Shown: positions 3,681 to 44,833 of the stretch, in pieces
Numbering within the stretch: position 1 is the first letter of the stretch
How the letters are laid out: every line of letters starts with the position of its first letter
Origin: Kiloniellaceae bacterium
GTDB lineage: Bacteria > Pseudomonadota > Alphaproteobacteria > Kiloniellales > Kiloniellaceae
Length of the DNA stretch: 64,000 bases
Assembly (NCBI GenBank): GCA_009377535.1
Contig: WHTV01000001.1
Location: 106,421-170,420, forward strand
Direction of reading: 5' to 3'
Notes under the pieces: model-generated
What the model was told of the DNA's origin: nothing
What the model saw: the letters and a program-made list of their open reading frames with translations, nothing else
Databases searched by the model: none
Translations under genes and position numbers: made by a program

Positions 3681-4187
3681 ATGGCCGTTTCCGCTAACCC
3701 GTTTTTGAATGGTGAGTTCCCCAAGATCGATTTCGCTGCCTTCATGGACCCCAGCAAGTTCACCGAGCAGTGGGAGAAGTTCGACTTCGCCAAGGTCGCC
3801 GATCAGTTCAAGGTGCCGGGCCTCGATGCCCAGGCGCTGGTCGAATATCAGAAGCGCAACCTCGAGGTCTTCGCCCTGGCCAACAAGATCGCCCTTGAGG
3901 GCGCTCAGGCCTTGATCAGCCGGCAGGCCGAGTTCGTCCGCAAGGGCGTCGAGGACGCCTCCAAGGCGCTGTCCGAGCTGAACGCCGCCGGCACGCCGCA
4001 GGACAAGCTGTTGAAGCAGGCCGAGCTGGCCAAGGCCGTCTACGAGGCCGCCGTTGCCAACCTGCAGGAGCTGACCGAGATGGCCAGCAAGTCGAACGGC
4101 GAGGCCGCCAACCTGCTGTCGACCCGCGTGAGCGAGAGCTTCGGCGAGTTCACCGGCGAGATCAAGAAGACCGCGAAGAAGAAGTAA
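3681..4187 (+). CDS. Phasin family protein (polyhydroxyalkanoate granule protein)
   Basis: 168 aa, Phe-rich N-terminus (FPKIDFAAFMDPSKFTEQWEKFDF) and a long amphipathic helical body with repeated LANKIALEGAQALISRQAEF type heptads, ending in a lysine tail (KKTAKKK). This is the phasin pattern: the protein coats polyhydroxyalkanoate granules and limits their size. A ribosome site GAGGAG lies 9 bp before the ATG. A clear promoter and TGCA dyads precede it and a hairpin terminator follows, so it is probably a strongly expressed single-gene unit. No PHA synthase is in the window. Confidence 0.9.
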   Translation: MAVSANPFLNGEFPKIDFAAFMDPSKFTEQWEKFDFAKVADQFKVPGLDAQALVEYQKRNLEVFALANKIALEGAQALISRQAEFVRKGVEDASKALSELNAAGTPQDKLLKQAELAKAVYEAAVANLQELTEMASKSNGEAANLLSTRVSESFGEFTGEIKKTAKKK

Positions 4188-4225
4188 GCCGCTCTTCGCG
4201 GAGCTATTTCCTCCGAAAAGTGACT

Positions 4226-4253
4226 AAGGGCCGTCCTCCGGGGCGGCCCTTTT
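4226..4253 (+). terminator. Rho-independent terminator after phasin gene
   Basis: Eight-bp stem AAGGGCCG / CGGCCCTT with a 10-nt loop, ending in a short TTT run, 38 bp after the phasin stop. Confidence 0.75.
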
Positions 4254-4388
4254 CGCTGTCGGCCACCCGCTTTCTCCTCGGGCCGGTTGATCCAGGGCGC
4301 GCGGCGCCGTCGCAGCGGGACTTAACATTTTCCGGCGCCACCCTATCTTAGCGGGTTGAAAAACCACCCAGCGAAAGGGAGAGCGCAG

Positions 4389-5147
4389 ATGAGGCAAACA
4401 GCGAGGCTTACGGTTCTGGGCGTGGTGGCGGCGGCGATGCTGCCGCTCGGGGCCCAAGCCGGCGAGAGCGTGACCTACAGCGTCGATGGTGCGGAATTCG
4501 AGGGCTACAACGCGCCCGCCAAGGGCGACTCCAAAGGTCTCGTGCTGATCATCCACGACTGGGACGGGCTCACCGACTACGAGGAGAAGCGCGCCGAGAT
4601 GCTGGCCGAGATGGGCTACGACGCCTTCGCCGTCGATCTCTTCGGCAAGGGCAACCGACCGGCGGATGTCGACGCCCGGCGGGCCGAGACCGGCAAGCTC
4701 TACAGCGACCGCGAGAAGATGCGCAGCCTGCTGACGGGCGGTCTCGCTGCGGCGCGCGAACGCAGCGCTGCCCCGGCGGTGGTCATGGGCTACTGCTTCG
4801 GCGGCGCCGCGGTGCTCGAGATGGCGCGCTCCGGCCAGGCCGAGGAGGTCGCCGGTTACGCCACCTTCCACGGCGGCCTCGCCACTCCTGAGGGTCAGAG
4901 CTATCCGGCCTCGACCCCGCCGCTGCTGATCGCTCACGGCGGGGCGGACAGCTCGATCACCATGGACGAGGTGGCGGGCCTCTCGAAGGAGCTGGAGGCC
5001 GGCGGCCTCACCTACGAGATCCAGGTCTACTCCGGTGCGCCGCACGCCTTCACGGTGTTCGACTCCCAGGCCTACCGGGAGACCGCTGACAGGCAGTCCT
5101 GGCAGGCTTTCCAGGATTTCCTCGCCAGCACCCTGATCGGCAGCTGA
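4389..5147 (+). CDS. Secreted dienelactone hydrolase family protein
   Basis: 252 aa from the ATG at 4389, preferred over the TTG at 4356 because AGGGAG lies just before it and the product then begins with a normal signal peptide (MRQTARLTVLGVVAAAMLPLGAQA, cut after AQA). The alpha/beta-hydrolase triad is C136 in GYCFGG, D187 in HGGADSS and H219 in GAPHAF. Use of Cys as nucleophile is typical of dienelactone hydrolases. The enzyme probably cleaves a cyclic or small ester in the periplasm; the natural substrate is unknown. Confidence 0.87.
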   Translation: MRQTARLTVLGVVAAAMLPLGAQAGESVTYSVDGAEFEGYNAPAKGDSKGLVLIIHDWDGLTDYEEKRAEMLAEMGYDAFAVDLFGKGNRPADVDARRAETGKLYSDREKMRSLLTGGLAAARERSAAPAVVMGYCFGGAAVLEMARSGQAEEVAGYATFHGGLATPEGQSYPASTPPLLIAHGGADSSITMDEVAGLSKELEAGGLTYEIQVYSGAPHAFTVFDSQAYRETADRQSWQAFQDFLASTLIGS

Positions 5148-5160
5148 GACTCGGCAGAGC

Positions 5161-5192
5161 GGACCCGGCCGCCGCTGTGGGCGGCCGGGTCC
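5161..5192. terminator. Strong hairpin between convergent genes
   Basis: Perfect 13-bp stem GGACCCGGCCGCC / GGCGGCCGGGTCC with a 6-nt loop. It sits between the convergent hydrolase and tautomerase genes and may act on both strands, although neither side has a T tract. Confidence 0.6.
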
Positions 5193-5200
5193 TCCGCCTG

Positions 5201-5422
5201 TCAGCCACCCTGGTTCTGGATTGCCTTGACGTCGGCGGCGGTCAAGGCCTTGCCGCCGATGCCCCATTCCCCGCTGGCGATCTCGTGCACGCGCACCCAG
5301 GTGACGCCGCGCATGGCTTCACCCTCGATCGCCACCATCGCGTCGGTGACCTTGGCGATCATCTCCTGCTTCTGATCCTTGTTGAAGACGCCTTCGATGA
5401 GTTGGATGTCGACGAGGGGCAT
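5201..5422 (-). CDS. 4-oxalocrotonate tautomerase family protein
   Basis: 73 aa. The start was moved to the ATG at 5422, since this gives the mature N-terminus M-PLVDIQLIEGVF, with the Pro that becomes the N-terminal catalytic base, and since AAGGAG lies 9 bp upstream. The small length and the KVTDAMVAIEGEAMRGVTWVRVHE core fit the tautomerase superfamily, which forms trimers or hexamers and interconverts enol and keto acids. It is divergent from an HxlR regulator, with a long inverted repeat between the two, so it is probably that regulator's target. Confidence 0.85.
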   Translation of the reverse strand: MPLVDIQLIEGVFNKDQKQEMIAKVTDAMVAIEGEAMRGVTWVRVHEIASGEWGIGGKALTAADVKAIQNQGG

Positions 5423-7318: not shown

Positions 7319-8764
7319 TCAGGCCGCGGCGCTGAGGGACGAGGCCGCCGCGCCGGCAGCCCGCTCGATCAGCGCCCGATGCAAGGCCCGGATGCAGGCG
7401 TCGTGGTCCCCCTCGTCGACGATGACCTGCATGTCGACCTTGCGCAGGAGGTCGTTGAAGCCGAGCGGCTCGATGCCGGCCTCGGCCAGGGCGGTGAGGA
7501 CGCGGGCCCCGAGTGCCGGCACGCGCAGGTCGCGGCCGAGGATCGAGATCACCGCCACGTTGCGCGAGTTGATCACAGCGGAGGGGAAGCGCTCGTTGAG
7601 ATCCTGCTCCACCCGCTTCACCGCCTTGGCCGCCCCCTTCAGGAAGTGGGTGATGGTGTTGGCGTTGGAGGTCTTGGCGACGATCTGCGCCTTGTGGCGC
7701 TTCAGCGTTTCGAGGATCGCCGCGTCGTAGCCCTTCACGCCGACCATGTCCTGCTCGAAGAACTCGAAGGCATAGACGCCCTTCAGGCCGGTGATGATCT
7801 CCACGGCCGGCGCCTTGGCCGCGAGGTCGCCGCGGATCACCGCGCCCGGGCTTTCCGGCTCGAAGGTGTTCTTGATGCGCAAGGGGATGCAGGCCTGGCG
7901 CAGGCCCTTGGCGGCGCTCGGATGGATCGCCTCCATGCCCATGTTGGAGAGCTGGTCGGCGACGTCGTAGTTGGTCTCCGCGATGGGCTTCACCGCCGCG
8001 GCTCCGACCAGCTTCGGGTCGGCGGAAGACAGGTGGAACTCCTTGTGGATCACCGCCTCCACGGCGCCGACCTCGACGGCGATGCGCGAGAAGGTCAGCT
8101 CACTGTAGCCGCGGCCGTAGAGCCCCACCAGACCCTCCTCGCACTGGACATAGCCGGTGACGATGGGCAGTTGGCGGGAGAGGTCGAGGGCCACGAAGGC
8201 CTCGGCGATGCGCTGGTCGAGCTTTTTGAAGCCGTTCTCGCGCCAGCCGGTCAGGTCGACGAAGGTCGCGTTCACATCCGCGCGCTGCAGCCGCAGCATC
8301 AGGTTGTGGGCGCTGTGCGCTTCGCCGACGCCGCACAGCATCTCGCGCACGGCCATCAGGTGCTCCGGCAGCTTGAAGTGGCCGAAGGAACAGAGGCGTC
8401 GCAGGTCCATAAGGCAGCTGCGCACGCCTTCTATGCGCTCCTCGACGAAGCGGTCGGCCAGGGCGATGTCGGCCGAGTCGTCGAGGACGTCCCGGTTCTT
8501 CTCGTGCATGGCCGCGCCGGTGCGGGTCAGCGCATCGCCCCAGGCCCACTCGCTTTCCGAGCCGGCGTAAAGCGCATAGACGCCGGCTTCGCCGGTCTTC
8601 TTGTGCTCCAGCAGCAGGTCGGTCATGCCGCTGTAGGCGGAGACGACGAAGACGCGGTTGTAGAGTTCCGTAGCCTGGCGATCGCCGATCATGATGTCGT
8701 TCACCACGGTATCGACTGCCGACGTGGAGGTGCCGCCGATCTTATGGACGGTCGGATTGGTCAT
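7319..8764 (-). CDS. ask_ect: Ectoine-specific aspartate kinase (Ask_Ect)
   Basis: 481 aa. Begins with the kinase motif VHKIGGTS and ends with ACT-type regulatory repeats (VAVISILGRDLRVPALGARVLTALAEAGIEPLGF). It phosphorylates aspartate, the first step toward aspartate semialdehyde. Placed last in the ectAB-ectC-ectD run, it is the specialised aspartokinase found in many ectoine clusters, thought to be less feedback-inhibited by lysine and threonine. The gap to ectD is only 54 bp, which supports one operon. It is unlikely to be the housekeeping LysC, given context and the HKIGGTS motif. Confidence 0.92.
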   Translation of the reverse strand: MTNPTVHKIGGTSTSAVDTVVNDIMIGDRQATELYNRVFVVSAYSGMTDLLLEHKKTGEAGVYALYAGSESEWAWGDALTRTGAAMHEKNRDVLDDSADIALADRFVEERIEGVRSCLMDLRRLCSFGHFKLPEHLMAVREMLCGVGEAHSAHNLMLRLQRADVNATFVDLTGWRENGFKKLDQRIAEAFVALDLSRQLPIVTGYVQCEEGLVGLYGRGYSELTFSRIAVEVGAVEAVIHKEFHLSSADPKLVGAAAVKPIAETNYDVADQLSNMGMEAIHPSAAKGLRQACIPLRIKNTFEPESPGAVIRGDLAAKAPAVEIITGLKGVYAFEFFEQDMVGVKGYDAAILETLKRHKAQIVAKTSNANTITHFLKGAAKAVKRVEQDLNERFPSAVINSRNVAVISILGRDLRVPALGARVLTALAEAGIEPLGFNDLLRKVDMQVIVDEGDHDACIRALHRALIERAAGAAASSLSAAA

Positions 8765-8818: not shown

Positions 8819-9721
8819 CTAAGCGGCCAGCTTCAGAGGTTGCGGCGCCCGCTCGCTGAGGAAAGCCGGGCGCGGCCTGCTGGCGCCGAAGGGCTCGACC
8901 ACAGCATTGCTCATCGCGTTGTATGCGAAGAAGGCGTTGGAGCGCGGGAAGGGGGTGATGTTGCTGTTGGAGCCGTGCATCAGGTTGCAATCGAATACGG
9001 TGGCCGACCCGGCCTTGCCTGTAGCGACAGCGATTCCGCCGGCTTCCACCATGCGGGCCAGCGACTCGTCGTCGGGAACGCCGTACTCCTGTTTCTTGAG
9101 GGACTTCTTGTAGTGGTCGTCGGGCGTTTCGCCGACGCAGGACAGGAACCACCAGTGCGATCCCGGGATCACCATCAGCGGGCCGTTGAAGCTATCGTTG
9201 TCGGTCAGCGCCACTGAAATGCTGAGGGCCCGCATGCGCGGCATGCCGTCCTCGACGTGCCAAGTTTCGAAGTCCGAGTGCCAGTAGAATTCCTTGGCAC
9301 GGAAGCCCGGCTTGAAGTTCAGGCGGGACTGGTTGACGTAGATGGCGTCGTCCAGCACCTGGCTGACCAGTCCGGCCAGGCGCGGGTCGCGCGCCAAGCT
9401 GTCGAACAGAGGGCTCACCTTATGGATTTCGAAGATGGTGCGCACCGTGCCGCTCCCCGGCTCGGTAATGGTGCTCTCCCGCTCGGTTATCGTGGGCTCG
9501 CGGCTCAAGCGCCCCAGTTCGGCGCGCAGCGCCGCCACTTCCTCGCCATCCAGCAATTCGGGGAGAATCAGATAGCCGTCGCGCTCATAGTCCGCGAGCT
9601 GACGCGGCGACAAAGGTCCCACGGAGCGCTCGGCGTTGCCGTAGACCACCGGGTCGAGCCGCGGCAGCCATTCGGGAGAGGGCGCAATGCGCGATGGATA
9701 GGGATCTTCCAAGGGTCTCAT
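8819..9721 (-). CDS. ectD: Ectoine 5-hydroxylase
   Basis: 300 aa. The EctD signature is intact: F-x-WHSDFETWHVEDGMPRMRALS supplies the first Fe ligands (HSD) and substrate contacts, and the distal His is in NLMHGSNSNITPF. This Fe(II)/2-oxoglutarate dioxygenase converts ectoine to 5-hydroxyectoine, using O2. There is a small internal echo (PTITERESTITEP) that does not disturb the core. It lies 60 bp after ectC. The presence of ectD means hydroxyectoine, useful against heat and drying, should be made as well as ectoine. Confidence 0.96.
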   Translation of the reverse strand: MRPLEDPYPSRIAPSPEWLPRLDPVVYGNAERSVGPLSPRQLADYERDGYLILPELLDGEEVAALRAELGRLSREPTITERESTITEPGSGTVRTIFEIHKVSPLFDSLARDPRLAGLVSQVLDDAIYVNQSRLNFKPGFRAKEFYWHSDFETWHVEDGMPRMRALSISVALTDNDSFNGPLMVIPGSHWWFLSCVGETPDDHYKKSLKKQEYGVPDDESLARMVEAGGIAVATGKAGSATVFDCNLMHGSNSNITPFPRSNAFFAYNAMSNAVVEPFGASRPRPAFLSERAPQPLKLAA

Positions 9722-9781: not shown

Positions 9782-10177
9782 TCAAACGGCCTCCTCTTCC
9801 TCCAGTGCATAGGCGCCGTCGGGGCCGTGCACTTCCTTGCCGTTGACGGGCGGATTGAAGCAGCAGGCCATGACCATCTCGGCCTCGCCGCGCAGGATGT
9901 GCTCGTCGTGCTTGTCGAGGGCGTACATCACGCCGGGCCGGATCGCGTGCACCTCGCCGGTGGCGCAGTCCTCGATGGAACCCTCCCCGGAGATGCAGTA
10001 GACGGACTCCATGTGGTTCTTATAGTGCATGCGAAGCTCGGCGCCCTGGTAGATCGTGGTGATGTGGAAGCTGAAGCCCATGGCGTCGCCCTTCAGCAGC
10101 AGGCGCACGCTCTCCCAGCCTTGCGAGACGATCCGGCGCTCGCTGTCCTTGGCTGTGTTGTAGTCCCTGACGATCAT
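9782..10177 (-). CDS. ectC: L-ectoine synthase
   Basis: 131 aa cupin, normal length. [45 protein letters not shown] starts the family pattern; [20 protein letters not shown] and [18 protein letters not shown] carry the Glu, Tyr and His positions that bind the catalytic iron in studied EctC proteins. It closes N-gamma-acetyl-diaminobutyrate to ectoine with loss of water. It begins only 14 bp after the ectAB stop, so the genes are almost certainly cotranscribed. Confidence 0.97.
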
Positions 10178-10191
10178 CTTATTCTTCTCCT

Positions 10192-12033
10192 TCAGGCCGC
10201 GGCGGCCGCACGATGGGTTTCCGCGAAGGCTTTTGCCAGAATGTCGAGGCCGGCGTCCAGCTGCTCCTGTTTGATGGTCAGCGGCGCCAGCACCTTCACG
10301 ATCTGATCCTGCGCGCCGGAGGTCTCGATCACCAAGCCGCGCTCGAAGCAGGCGGCACAGATCGCCGAGGCCGTCTTGCCCTCGCCGACGTCGATGCCGC
10401 GGAACATGCCGCGCCCCTTGGTGGCGTAGCCGTGTTTCTTGGCGATCTCCGCCAGGCGCTCGCCCAAGTGCTCGCCCTTGGCGGCGATCTTCCCGGCGAA
10501 GGCACCGTTCTTCCAGAACTTCTCCAGCGCCACCCTGGCCGTGACGAAGGCGTGGTTGTTGCCGCGGAAGGTGCCGTTGTGCTCGGCCGGCTGCCAGATG
10601 TCATGCTCCGGCTTCAGCAACACCATGGCGAAGGGCAGTCCCATGCCGGAGAGCGACTTAGCCAGGGTGACGATATCCGGCGAAATGCCCATCTCCTCGA
10701 AGGAGAAGAACGTTCCGGTGCGCCCGCAGCCGGCCTGGATGTCATCGACGATCAGCAGGCTGCCGTGCTTATGCGCCAGCTGCTCCAGGGCCTGCATCCA
10801 CTCGGTCGATGCGGCATTGAGGCCGCCCTCGCCCTGCACCGTTTCGACGATGAAGGCCGCCGGCGCCTCGAGGCCGCTGGACGAGTCGTCGAGCATCTGC
10901 CCCAGCATCTCCAGGCCCGTGGTGCCGTCGGCGAGGTAGCCGTCGTAGGGCATCCGGGTGACTCCCTCGAGCGGCAGGCCGGCGCCGCCGCGGTGGTAGC
11001 CGTTGCCGGTGCAGGCCAGCGCCCCCAGGGTGACACCGTGGAAGCCGTTGGTGAAGGCGACCACCTGGCGGCGCCCGGTCACCTTGCGGGCCAGCTTGAG
11101 GGCCGCCTCGACGGCATTGGCGCCGGTCGGGCCGGTGAACTGCAGGCGGTAGTCCATGCCGCGCGGCTCAAGGATGATCTTCTCGAAGGCGCCGATGAAT
11201 GCGCCTTTGGCCTCGGTATACATGTCGAGGCCATGGGTGACGCCATCGCGCAGAATATAATCGACCAGCGCCAGCTTCATGTCCGGATCGTTATGTCCGT
11301 AGTTCAGCGTCGAGCAGCCCGCCAGGAAGTCGATGTAGCGGCGGCCGTCCGCGGCAATCAACTCGGCGCCCTGGGCGCGCTCGAAGACGATCGGGAAGCT
11401 GCGGCAGTAGCTGCGGACTTCCGATTCTCTGCGGGTGAAGGTCTCGATGGCTGCGGACATGAAGGGCCTCAAATGCTGTGACGGGGGGAATGGGCGGCGG
11501 GCGACGCGATCGAAGGGGCCGATTTCCACCAGATGCTCGGTGTCGTGCCGGCCGCCGAAATGGGCCTCGCGCTCGAAGTGCGCGTCGTCGGCGATCGGCG
11601 CGCCGAGATCGTCGGCGATGGCGCGGAACAGCGCCCAGGATGCCGCGTTGTCGCGGGTGATGGTGCTGTGAATGTAATGGACCGGCGCGCAGGCCTTGCG
11701 CTTCAGCAGCTCGCGGACAAGTTGCTTAGCGACGCCGCGACCGCGCGCGTCGGGGTGAACGGCGACCTGCCAGACGAACAGCGTGTCCGGCTTCTCCGGC
11801 GGCAGGTAGCCGGAGACCCAGCCGATCGGCTTGCCGTCGGCCTCCGCCAGGGCACAGGTGCCGGCAAAATGCGAACACTGCAGAAGGTTGCAGTACATGG
11901 AATTGTCGTCGAGCGCCTCGATGCTCTTGATGAGCGCCCAGATCCGCGCCCCGTCGGCTTTGCGCGGCCGGCGGTAGGTGACCGCCCGGCTTTTCTGGCT
12001 GCGGGGGGCATGAACGGCTTGGTCGAGTTGCAT
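10192..12033 (-). CDS. ectAB: EctA-EctB fusion: diaminobutyrate acetyltransferase plus diaminobutyrate-2-oxoglutarate transaminase
   Basis: 613 aa from the ATG at 12033, which has GGAGAAG 7 bp upstream; the ORF-track start 16 codons earlier lacks support. Residues 1 to about 175 are EctA, a GNAT acetyltransferase ([18 protein letters not shown] acetyl-CoA loop). After a short linker ([17 protein letters not shown]) a complete EctB begins at M192: [38 protein letters not shown], and the PLP lysine in LAKSLSG. Together they make diaminobutyrate from aspartate semialdehyde and acetylate it. These are normally two genes. The M192 codon still has GAGG 6 bp upstream, and a TGA lies in the +1 frame at 11469-11471, so separate EctB synthesis or a single-base error must be considered. 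Confidence 0.9.
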
Positions 12034-12341: not shown

Positions 12342-12827
12342 ATGCAGCGGCGCTCACAGCAGGCCCTCTCAGCCATGCGCCAGATCCTGCGCGCGACGGA
12401 GAACTATGGCCGCAAGCTGGCCCGCTCGACGGGGCTGACGGCCTCCCAACTCCTGCTGCTGCAAGTGCTCGACCAGCACGGCGAGACCACGGCGGGCCAG
12501 ATCGCCGCCCACATGGGCATCACCCAGGCGACCACCACCAGCCTGCTGCACAAGCTGGAGGCGCGCAATCTGGTGAGCCGCCAGCGCGGCGACAGCGACC
12601 GCCGCCAGGTCTGGCTGTCGCTCACCGAGGAGGGCCGTGAGAAGCTCGCGGCGGCGCCGGACGGTCTGCAGGGAATTTTCAAGGAGCGATTCGAGAATCT
12701 GGATTCCTGGGAACAGGCCATGCTGGTCGCCGCCCTGGAGCGGGTCGTCGCCATGCTCGATGCGGAGGCCCTGGACGCGGCACCGGTGCTCGACGTGGGC
12801 GCCCTCGACCGTGACCAGCAGCCCTAA
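12342..12827 (+). CDS. ectR: MarR-family regulator of ectoine genes (EctR type)
   Basis: 161 aa MarR protein. The winged helix reads LDQHGETTAGQIAAHMGITQATTTSLLHKLEARNLVSRQRGDSDRRQVWLSLTEEG, flanked by dimerisation helices. It is divergent from ectAB, the standard place for EctR1, a repressor that responds to osmotic conditions. A modest GGAAGG lies about 12 bp before the ATG. The C-terminal Ala/Asp-rich tail is variable. Identity as EctR rests on position and family rather than on a diagnostic motif. Confidence 0.85.
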   Translation: MQRRSQQALSAMRQILRATENYGRKLARSTGLTASQLLLLQVLDQHGETTAGQIAAHMGITQATTTSLLHKLEARNLVSRQRGDSDRRQVWLSLTEEGREKLAAAPDGLQGIFKERFENLDSWEQAMLVAALERVVAMLDAEALDAAPVLDVGALDRDQQP

Positions 12828-43639: not shown

Positions 43640-44833
43640 GTGAAGAAGCAGGCGGTGTGCGGGAGAGCACCTATCGACCTGCAATGTGAGGGACTTGTAG
43701 GGGCTGTGCCGCTGGCGCCGGGCGCCAAGGGGGGTGGGTCCCGAGAGCAATTTGCGAGGCTTGGTGTGGCTTGTCCTGCAAGTGGTCATGTTCCGGCATC
43801 GATCATCATAGCGAACTTCAATTACGCGCATTTTCTCAAGCGGTGCATCGACAGCGCTCTCGACCAAGACTACCGCAACGTGGAGGTGGTGGTGGTCGAT
43901 GATGCTTCGAGCGACGACTCTGCCGAGGTCATCAGGTCGTACGGGTCGCGGATCAAGTCGCGCCTGAAGGCGCGCAACGAGGGGCATGCCTCGGCATTCA
44001 ACGCGGGCTTCGCGGAAAGCTCCGGCGAGATCGTCTTCTTCCTGGACGCCGACGACTACCTCTATCCGAACGCCGTCTCGGAAGTAATCGAGGCCTGGGA
44101 CGACCGCACGGCGCAGGCGCAGTTCAGGCTCCACCTCGTCCACGACGACAGCGCCGTTGTGGACGTCTATCCGCCTCCCGAGCTGCCCTTCGACGACGGC
44201 GACGTGCTGCCGCAGCTGCTGCGCTGCGGGCGCTACCGCACGACGGTTACCAGCGGCCTTGCCTTCGACCGTGCAACCTTGCAGTCCATCCTGCCGATTC
44301 CCGAGGCGCCGTTTCGCCAGGGGGCCGACGGTTATCTTGCGACCGTGGCGCCGATCTACGGCGATGTGACCTCGATCGAGGCCTGCCTTGGGGTCTACCG
44401 TCAGCACGAGGCCAACCACTCGTCTTTCGGCGAGAAGCTGGCCGAGCGCGCGCGCTGGCGCATAGCGCACGACTTCCATCGCCTCGCCGCCCTGTCGCGG
44501 CGCGCGGACGAGGCGGGGCTGGCGCTGCCGGAAGACGCCTGCCTGCGTGATCCGACCCATCTCGAAGAGCGCCTGGCTTCTCTCTGCGTGGAGCGCTCGC
44601 GCCATCCCGTCGACGGCGACACGCGCCTGCGGCTGGCTGCCGCCGGCGCGGCCGCGAGCCTGGAGATGAATGCCTCGCTGCGCCGCCGAGCCTTTCTGGC
44701 CGCTTGGTTTCTTGCCGTCGGGACTCTGCCGCGCCGCTCGGCCAGGAGCGTCCTGTCGTGGAAGCTGATGGCCTCCTCGCGCCCCGCCGTGCTGGCGCAG
44801 CTGTCGAAGAGCCTCCGGCGGGTGGTCGGATAG
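43640..44833 (+). CDS. Family 2 glycosyltransferase
   Basis: Up to 397 aa; the start is uncertain. The GT-A fold begins at VPASIIIANFNYAHFLKRCIDSALDQDYRNVEVVVVDDASSDDSAEVI, with the metal-binding FLDADDYLYP. The 45 or so residues before this look non-conserved, and a GTG at 43766 with GAGG a few bases upstream is a likely true start. It transfers a sugar from a nucleotide-sugar to an unknown acceptor, probably for a cell-surface glycan. It is isolated from any polysaccharide cluster and convergent with a kinase gene (3-bp gap). Confidence 0.85.
   Translation: MKKQAVCGRAPIDLQCEGLVGAVPLAPGAKGGGSREQFARLGVACPASGHVPASIIIANFNYAHFLKRCIDSALDQDYRNVEVVVVDDASSDDSAEVIRSYGSRIKSRLKARNEGHASAFNAGFAESSGEIVFFLDADDYLYPNAVSEVIEAWDDRTAQAQFRLHLVHDDSAVVDVYPPPELPFDDGDVLPQLLRCGRYRTTVTSGLAFDRATLQSILPIPEAPFRQGADGYLATVAPIYGDVTSIEACLGVYRQHEANHSSFGEKLAERARWRIAHDFHRLAALSRRADEAGLALPEDACLRDPTHLEERLASLCVERSRHPVDGDTRLRLAAAGAAASLEMNASLRRRAFLAAWFLAVGTLPRRSARSVLSWKLMASSRPAVLAQLSKSLRRVVG

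Follow-up and report, generated by a model that had tools for sequence, protein, structure and literature searches.

Ectoine is a salt-protectant that is produced industrially. In its pathway EctB supplies the diaminobutyrate that EctA acetylates in the next step, and flux into the pathway is controlled by EctB. The locus considered here, which belongs to a marine Pelagibius species whose draft genome is 91% complete in 317 contigs, carries both enzymes in one reading frame, and this raises the question of whether the frame is a genuine gene fusion, how and how often such joins arose, and what joining the two enzymes would do. The window, i.e. the whole stretch of DNA that was analysed, comprises 64,000 nucleotides and was compared with related genomes and with known ectoine clusters. 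Canonical ectABC(D)-ask_ect clusters for ectoine and 5-hydroxyectoine have been reviewed across 510 producers (PMC5924519); they have the same enzymes and the same order ectA-ectB-ectC-ectD-ask as the window and likewise a MarR-type gene alongside, but in the window ectA and ectB are one gene.

The joined reading frame and its cluster

Read on the minus strand from 12033 to 10192, the window translates into 613 amino acids with zero stops inside (Table 1). The EctA half scores 180.8 bits against NCBIfam TIGR02406 (cut-off 120.6; profile positions 2-156 of 157) and the EctB half 613.1 bits against TIGR02407 (cut-off 552.2; profile positions 2-411 of 412, residues 198-604), which confirms the single EctA-EctB frame proposed in the initial annotation, with both profiles nearly full-length and over cut-off. 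The linker of about 17 residues described there corresponds to residues 175-191, between the end of the EctA profile and EctB Met192 (11460), and within it residues 179-191 have no counterpart in the alignment with two congeners. The positions given for the ectB ATG (11460-11458), for GAGG 6 nt upstream (11470-11467) and for the out-of-frame TGA (11471-11469) likewise agree with the sequence.

Concerning the catalytic residues, the PLP lysine of the EctB half is kept as K459 (codon 10659-10657) within an AKSLSG motif, and aligns with the lysine replaced by alanine in the solved EctB structure PDB 9s1p. In the EctB of P. lautus the PLP-binding lysine is Lys274 and the protein is reported to be tetrameric (PMC6915088). 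The EctA half matches the solved EctA structures 3d3s, 6sjy and 6sk1 in a phmmer search.

The genes ectC, ectD and a specialised aspartokinase gene all lie in the ectAB operon and are all intact, so the description of an otherwise complete ectoine cluster, with EctC, EctD and an Ask_Ect-type aspartokinase downstream, also stands. In the host genome (91% complete) the fused gene is the sole EctA and the sole EctB over cut-off and hence must supply both activities, if ectoine is made by the ectoine-cluster route. The draft was scaffolded: outside the window, a gap of ten N (G000:C111, ~44410-44419) lies inside a flavoprotein dehydrogenase-like gene.

Table 1. Features of the ectoine locus, in window coordinates.
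Feature	Position	Strand	Remarks
ectAB (EctA-EctB fusion gene)	10192..12033	-	single 613-codon frame, stop included; 66.5 kDa
EctA domain (GNAT L-2,4-diaminobutyrate acetyltransferase)	11512..11973	-	TIGR02406 match, fusion residues 21-174
EctA-EctB junction	11461..11511	-	fusion residues 175-191
GAGG, Shine-Dalgarno-like, for ectB	11467..11470	-	6 nt upstream of ectB ATG
Out-of-frame TGA	11469..11471	-	ends ectA only after removal of one base upstream
EctB part (PLP diaminobutyrate-2-oxoglutarate transaminase)	10195..11460	-	residues 192-613, own ATG
ectC, ectoine synthase	9782..10177	-	profile search
ectD, ectoine hydroxylase	8819..9721	-	TIGR02408
ask_ect, aspartate kinase (Ask_Ect-type)	7319..8764	-	PRK09181 model
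Candidate EctR, MarR-type regulator	12342..12827	+	divergent; several MarR models match, none over cut-off

Congeners and the origin of the join

Ectoine genes occur in three of the eight genomes of the Pelagibius genus sample, namely that of the window and the congeners G004 and G007. In both congeners ectA and ectB are separate genes, set 61-91 bp apart and with a TGA between them, and both also have GAGG upstream of ectB. In Pelagibius marinus NBU2595 (G007), whose EctA and EctB are 76% and 85% identical to those of the window, the two genes are kept apart by a TGA and a spacer of ~60 bp. Compared with the congeners, the window has lost 8 bp of the last codons of ectA (CTGCAGAG in G007) and, from the spacer, another 30-59 bp that include the stop. 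Through the 8-bp loss the reading frame bypasses the old stop, and removal of the ectA tail together with most of the spacer and the stop itself would have brought the two genes into one frame.

This origin departs from the one first suggested, a single-base deletion between genes formerly 8 bp apart. The alignment shows the two larger deletions instead, and the congener ectA stop lies 61-91 bp upstream of ectB. Moreover, at the TGA of 11469-11471, removing a base from the present sequence restores the stop, so that an insertion would be needed and not a deletion. A one-base indel as the main route was rejected, since it is the spacer as a whole in which window and congeners differ.

Relative to the congeners, EctA has a dN/dS of 0.24-0.31 and EctB one of 0.22-0.24, values that average over the time before and after the join. 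Pelagibius marinus also carries a second EctB-like gene (G007:C17:217908-219239, L039), which is 52% identical and sits on a long separate branch.

Frequency and recurrence

The fusion is rare, and in the Pseudomonadota sample, the phylum to which the frequency survey was confined, it occurs in Alphaproteobacteria only. About 119 of the 124 fetched loci with both genes have ectA and ectB separate; the five fused records represent three genomes, to which two rhizobial plasmids are additional. Among 54 EctA copies over cut-off in the phylum sample (399 genomes), only that of the window lies in a reading frame exceeding 600 codons, and the longest open frame is 317 in the class of G800 (45 EctA copies, 369 genomes) and 246 in the order of G483 (23 copies, 398 genomes). 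Several candidates were discarded on inspection: G025, for which the length of the open frame was misleading, has a TGA after ectA, and G041 C1, G166, G349 and G370 have a stop between the halves.

As to whether relatives share the joined frame, a point raised by the initial annotation, the congeners G004 and G007 do not, and it is found in G041, G265 and the two rhizobial plasmids. G041, of another family in the same order, has EctA and EctB in one frame of 605 aa with a short linker on contig C64 (L032:508-3561), adjoining a beta-aspartyl-peptidase gene and with no ectC beside it. The same genome has a second, separate ectA/ectB pair, and its fusion may serve another acetyl-diaminobutyrate route. 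G265, of another family in the class, has on contig C59 a single frame of 617 aa, again with a short linker, followed by ectC and ectD. Both differ from the window in their linkers and in their positions in the EctB tree.

The rhizobial fusions lie on finished plasmids, pSfreGR64b of Sinorhizobium fredii GR64 (WP_080604305.1, 632 aa) and pMspAR07c of Mesorhizobium sp. AR07 (WP_319946014.1, 633 aa), and in each case ectC follows. In S. fredii GR64 the fused gene is flanked by nif genes on one side and by a nodA-family gene on the other. RefSeq labels both (L161, L160; NZ_CP137018.1, NZ_CP080526.1) just as ectB, so that ectA looks missing. They resemble the window in having ectC next and in keeping an internal ribosome-site-like sequence and ATG, and differ from it in a separate origin in the EctB tree, a longer linker, their plasmid location and an annotation as transaminase only. 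Between the two species the proteins are 86% identical, and the linker of 42 codons stays in frame, free of indels and stops, over ~32 substitutions. On plasmid pMspAR02c of Mesorhizobium sp. AR02, a degraded ectA remnant (L232:3871-4052) lies directly upstream of an intact ectB (4052-5359). This ectB has its own ribosome site and start and is 95% identical to the EctB part of the AR07 fusion, a case which suggests that EctB, made from the internal start, can outlast the EctA half. At its internal ectB start every fusion has a start codon, ATG or GTG, together with a GAGG/GGAG-type sequence.

In an EctB tree of 60 sequences the window adjoins G004 and G007 with starred support, and the fused state needs 3-4 independent changes, four as counted on this tree, at least three of which are forced by well-supported branches. 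The ectA-ectB fusion apparently arose independently several times. Apparently it was also undescribed before: passages retrieved by term search from the review of 510 producers (PMC5924519), an EctB biochemistry paper, a phototroph survey and a 2026 Planctomycetota survey describe none, and in the main text of PMC5924519 the same term search for 'fused' or 'fusion' returned reporter fusions only.

Functional interpretation

Taken together, the locus is likely to hold a genuine, recently formed ectA-ectB fusion, though the window-type fusion is borne by only one genome, a draft of 317 contigs. Since both enzyme halves are intact, its main product should be a bifunctional EctAB protein of 66.5 kDa, whose EctB half would turn aspartate semialdehyde and glutamate into L-2,4-diaminobutyrate and whose EctA half would acetylate the latter, EctC then closing the ring. 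Free EctB, computed at 45.2 kDa from its own ATG, is probably made alongside the fusion, because a ribosome-site-like sequence and the ATG survive inside the frame. A fused tetramer would hold four EctA domains on short linkers, with a fixed ratio and close sites, and the channelling of diaminobutyrate raised in the initial annotation may or may not follow.

Such an arrangement need not be of any use to the cell. It is a serious possibility, falling just short of probable, that the fusion is neutral, i.e. that spacer loss took the stop, that translation from its own start still provides much EctB and that no channelling or regulatory benefit follows. At the GC content of the locus a random 13-codon linker has a chance of ~0.26 of being open and in frame, so that once the spacer shrinks about one join in four would be open by chance and need not be selected. 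The retained internal ribosome-site-like sequence and start agree with this, as does the domain order, which is that of the operon with EctA first, though EctB acts first. The rarity and scatter of the fusions point the same way, and so does Mesorhizobium AR02, where the EctA half was lost and EctB with its own start kept. Against a wholly neutral history stand the rhizobial fusions, whose frame has been kept in two species with 86% identical proteins, and the persistence of at least three independent occurrences.

The opposite proposal goes further. EctAB would be a recurrent, selected alphaproteobacterial solution that couples diaminobutyrate formation to acetylation, with the internal start giving free EctB and mixed EctAB/EctB oligomers setting the activity ratio. 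We regard this as doubtful.

Integrity of the sequence at the junction

A genuine fusion with a mainly bifunctional product presupposes that the junction was read correctly. The alternative is a sequencing or assembly error in which a one-base indel, e.g. in the C6 run of the junction, masks the true ectA stop: dropping one C from this run puts a TGA in frame just upstream of the ectB ATG, the draft assembly is MAG-like, and ectA and ectB are separate in both congeners. To us it appears very improbable. A frame-break audit set 200 kb of the window contig against 540 kb of the two congeners, G265 lying outside its scope, and retained real coding frames, in which third-position changes dominate. 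It found 135 genes around the locus, which cover 134 kb of that contig, to be intact, with zero true frame breaks; the two apparent breaks left after filtering were a 10-N scaffold gap and an antisense artefact, neither of them an indel. Without the coding-position filter about 20 genes had seemed broken, mostly antisense shadow ORFs.

From the zero indels in 134 kb, the chance of an indel error in the junction of ~50 bp can be put at ~0.001 or less, there are no N bases in the junction, and a sequencing indel at the joint is thus unlikely. Beyond any single base, the spacer as a whole has 40-70 bp fewer than that of the congeners, and the same EctA-EctB architecture is found in finished plasmids. 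At the G265:C59 joint (L051:1960-2020), one C less in a C5 run would give an in-frame TAG directly after the usual EctA end.

Finally, a decaying cluster with an inactive fused protein is scarcely credible: EctA is indeed less conserved than EctB with respect to the congeners (76% against 85% identity), but each half exceeds its curated cut-off, the EctB half retains its PLP lysine, dN/dS stays well under 1 as averaged over the time before and after the join, and the remaining cluster genes are all intact.

Implications

On present evidence, which is that of sequence comparison, the ectA-ectB fusion appears real, apparently recurrent and mechanistically modest. Databases conceal such fusions under 'ectB', and ectA can consequently look absent in genome surveys. 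A natural EctAB fusion also lends itself to testing whether a link between the first two steps alters flux or the leakage of diaminobutyrate.
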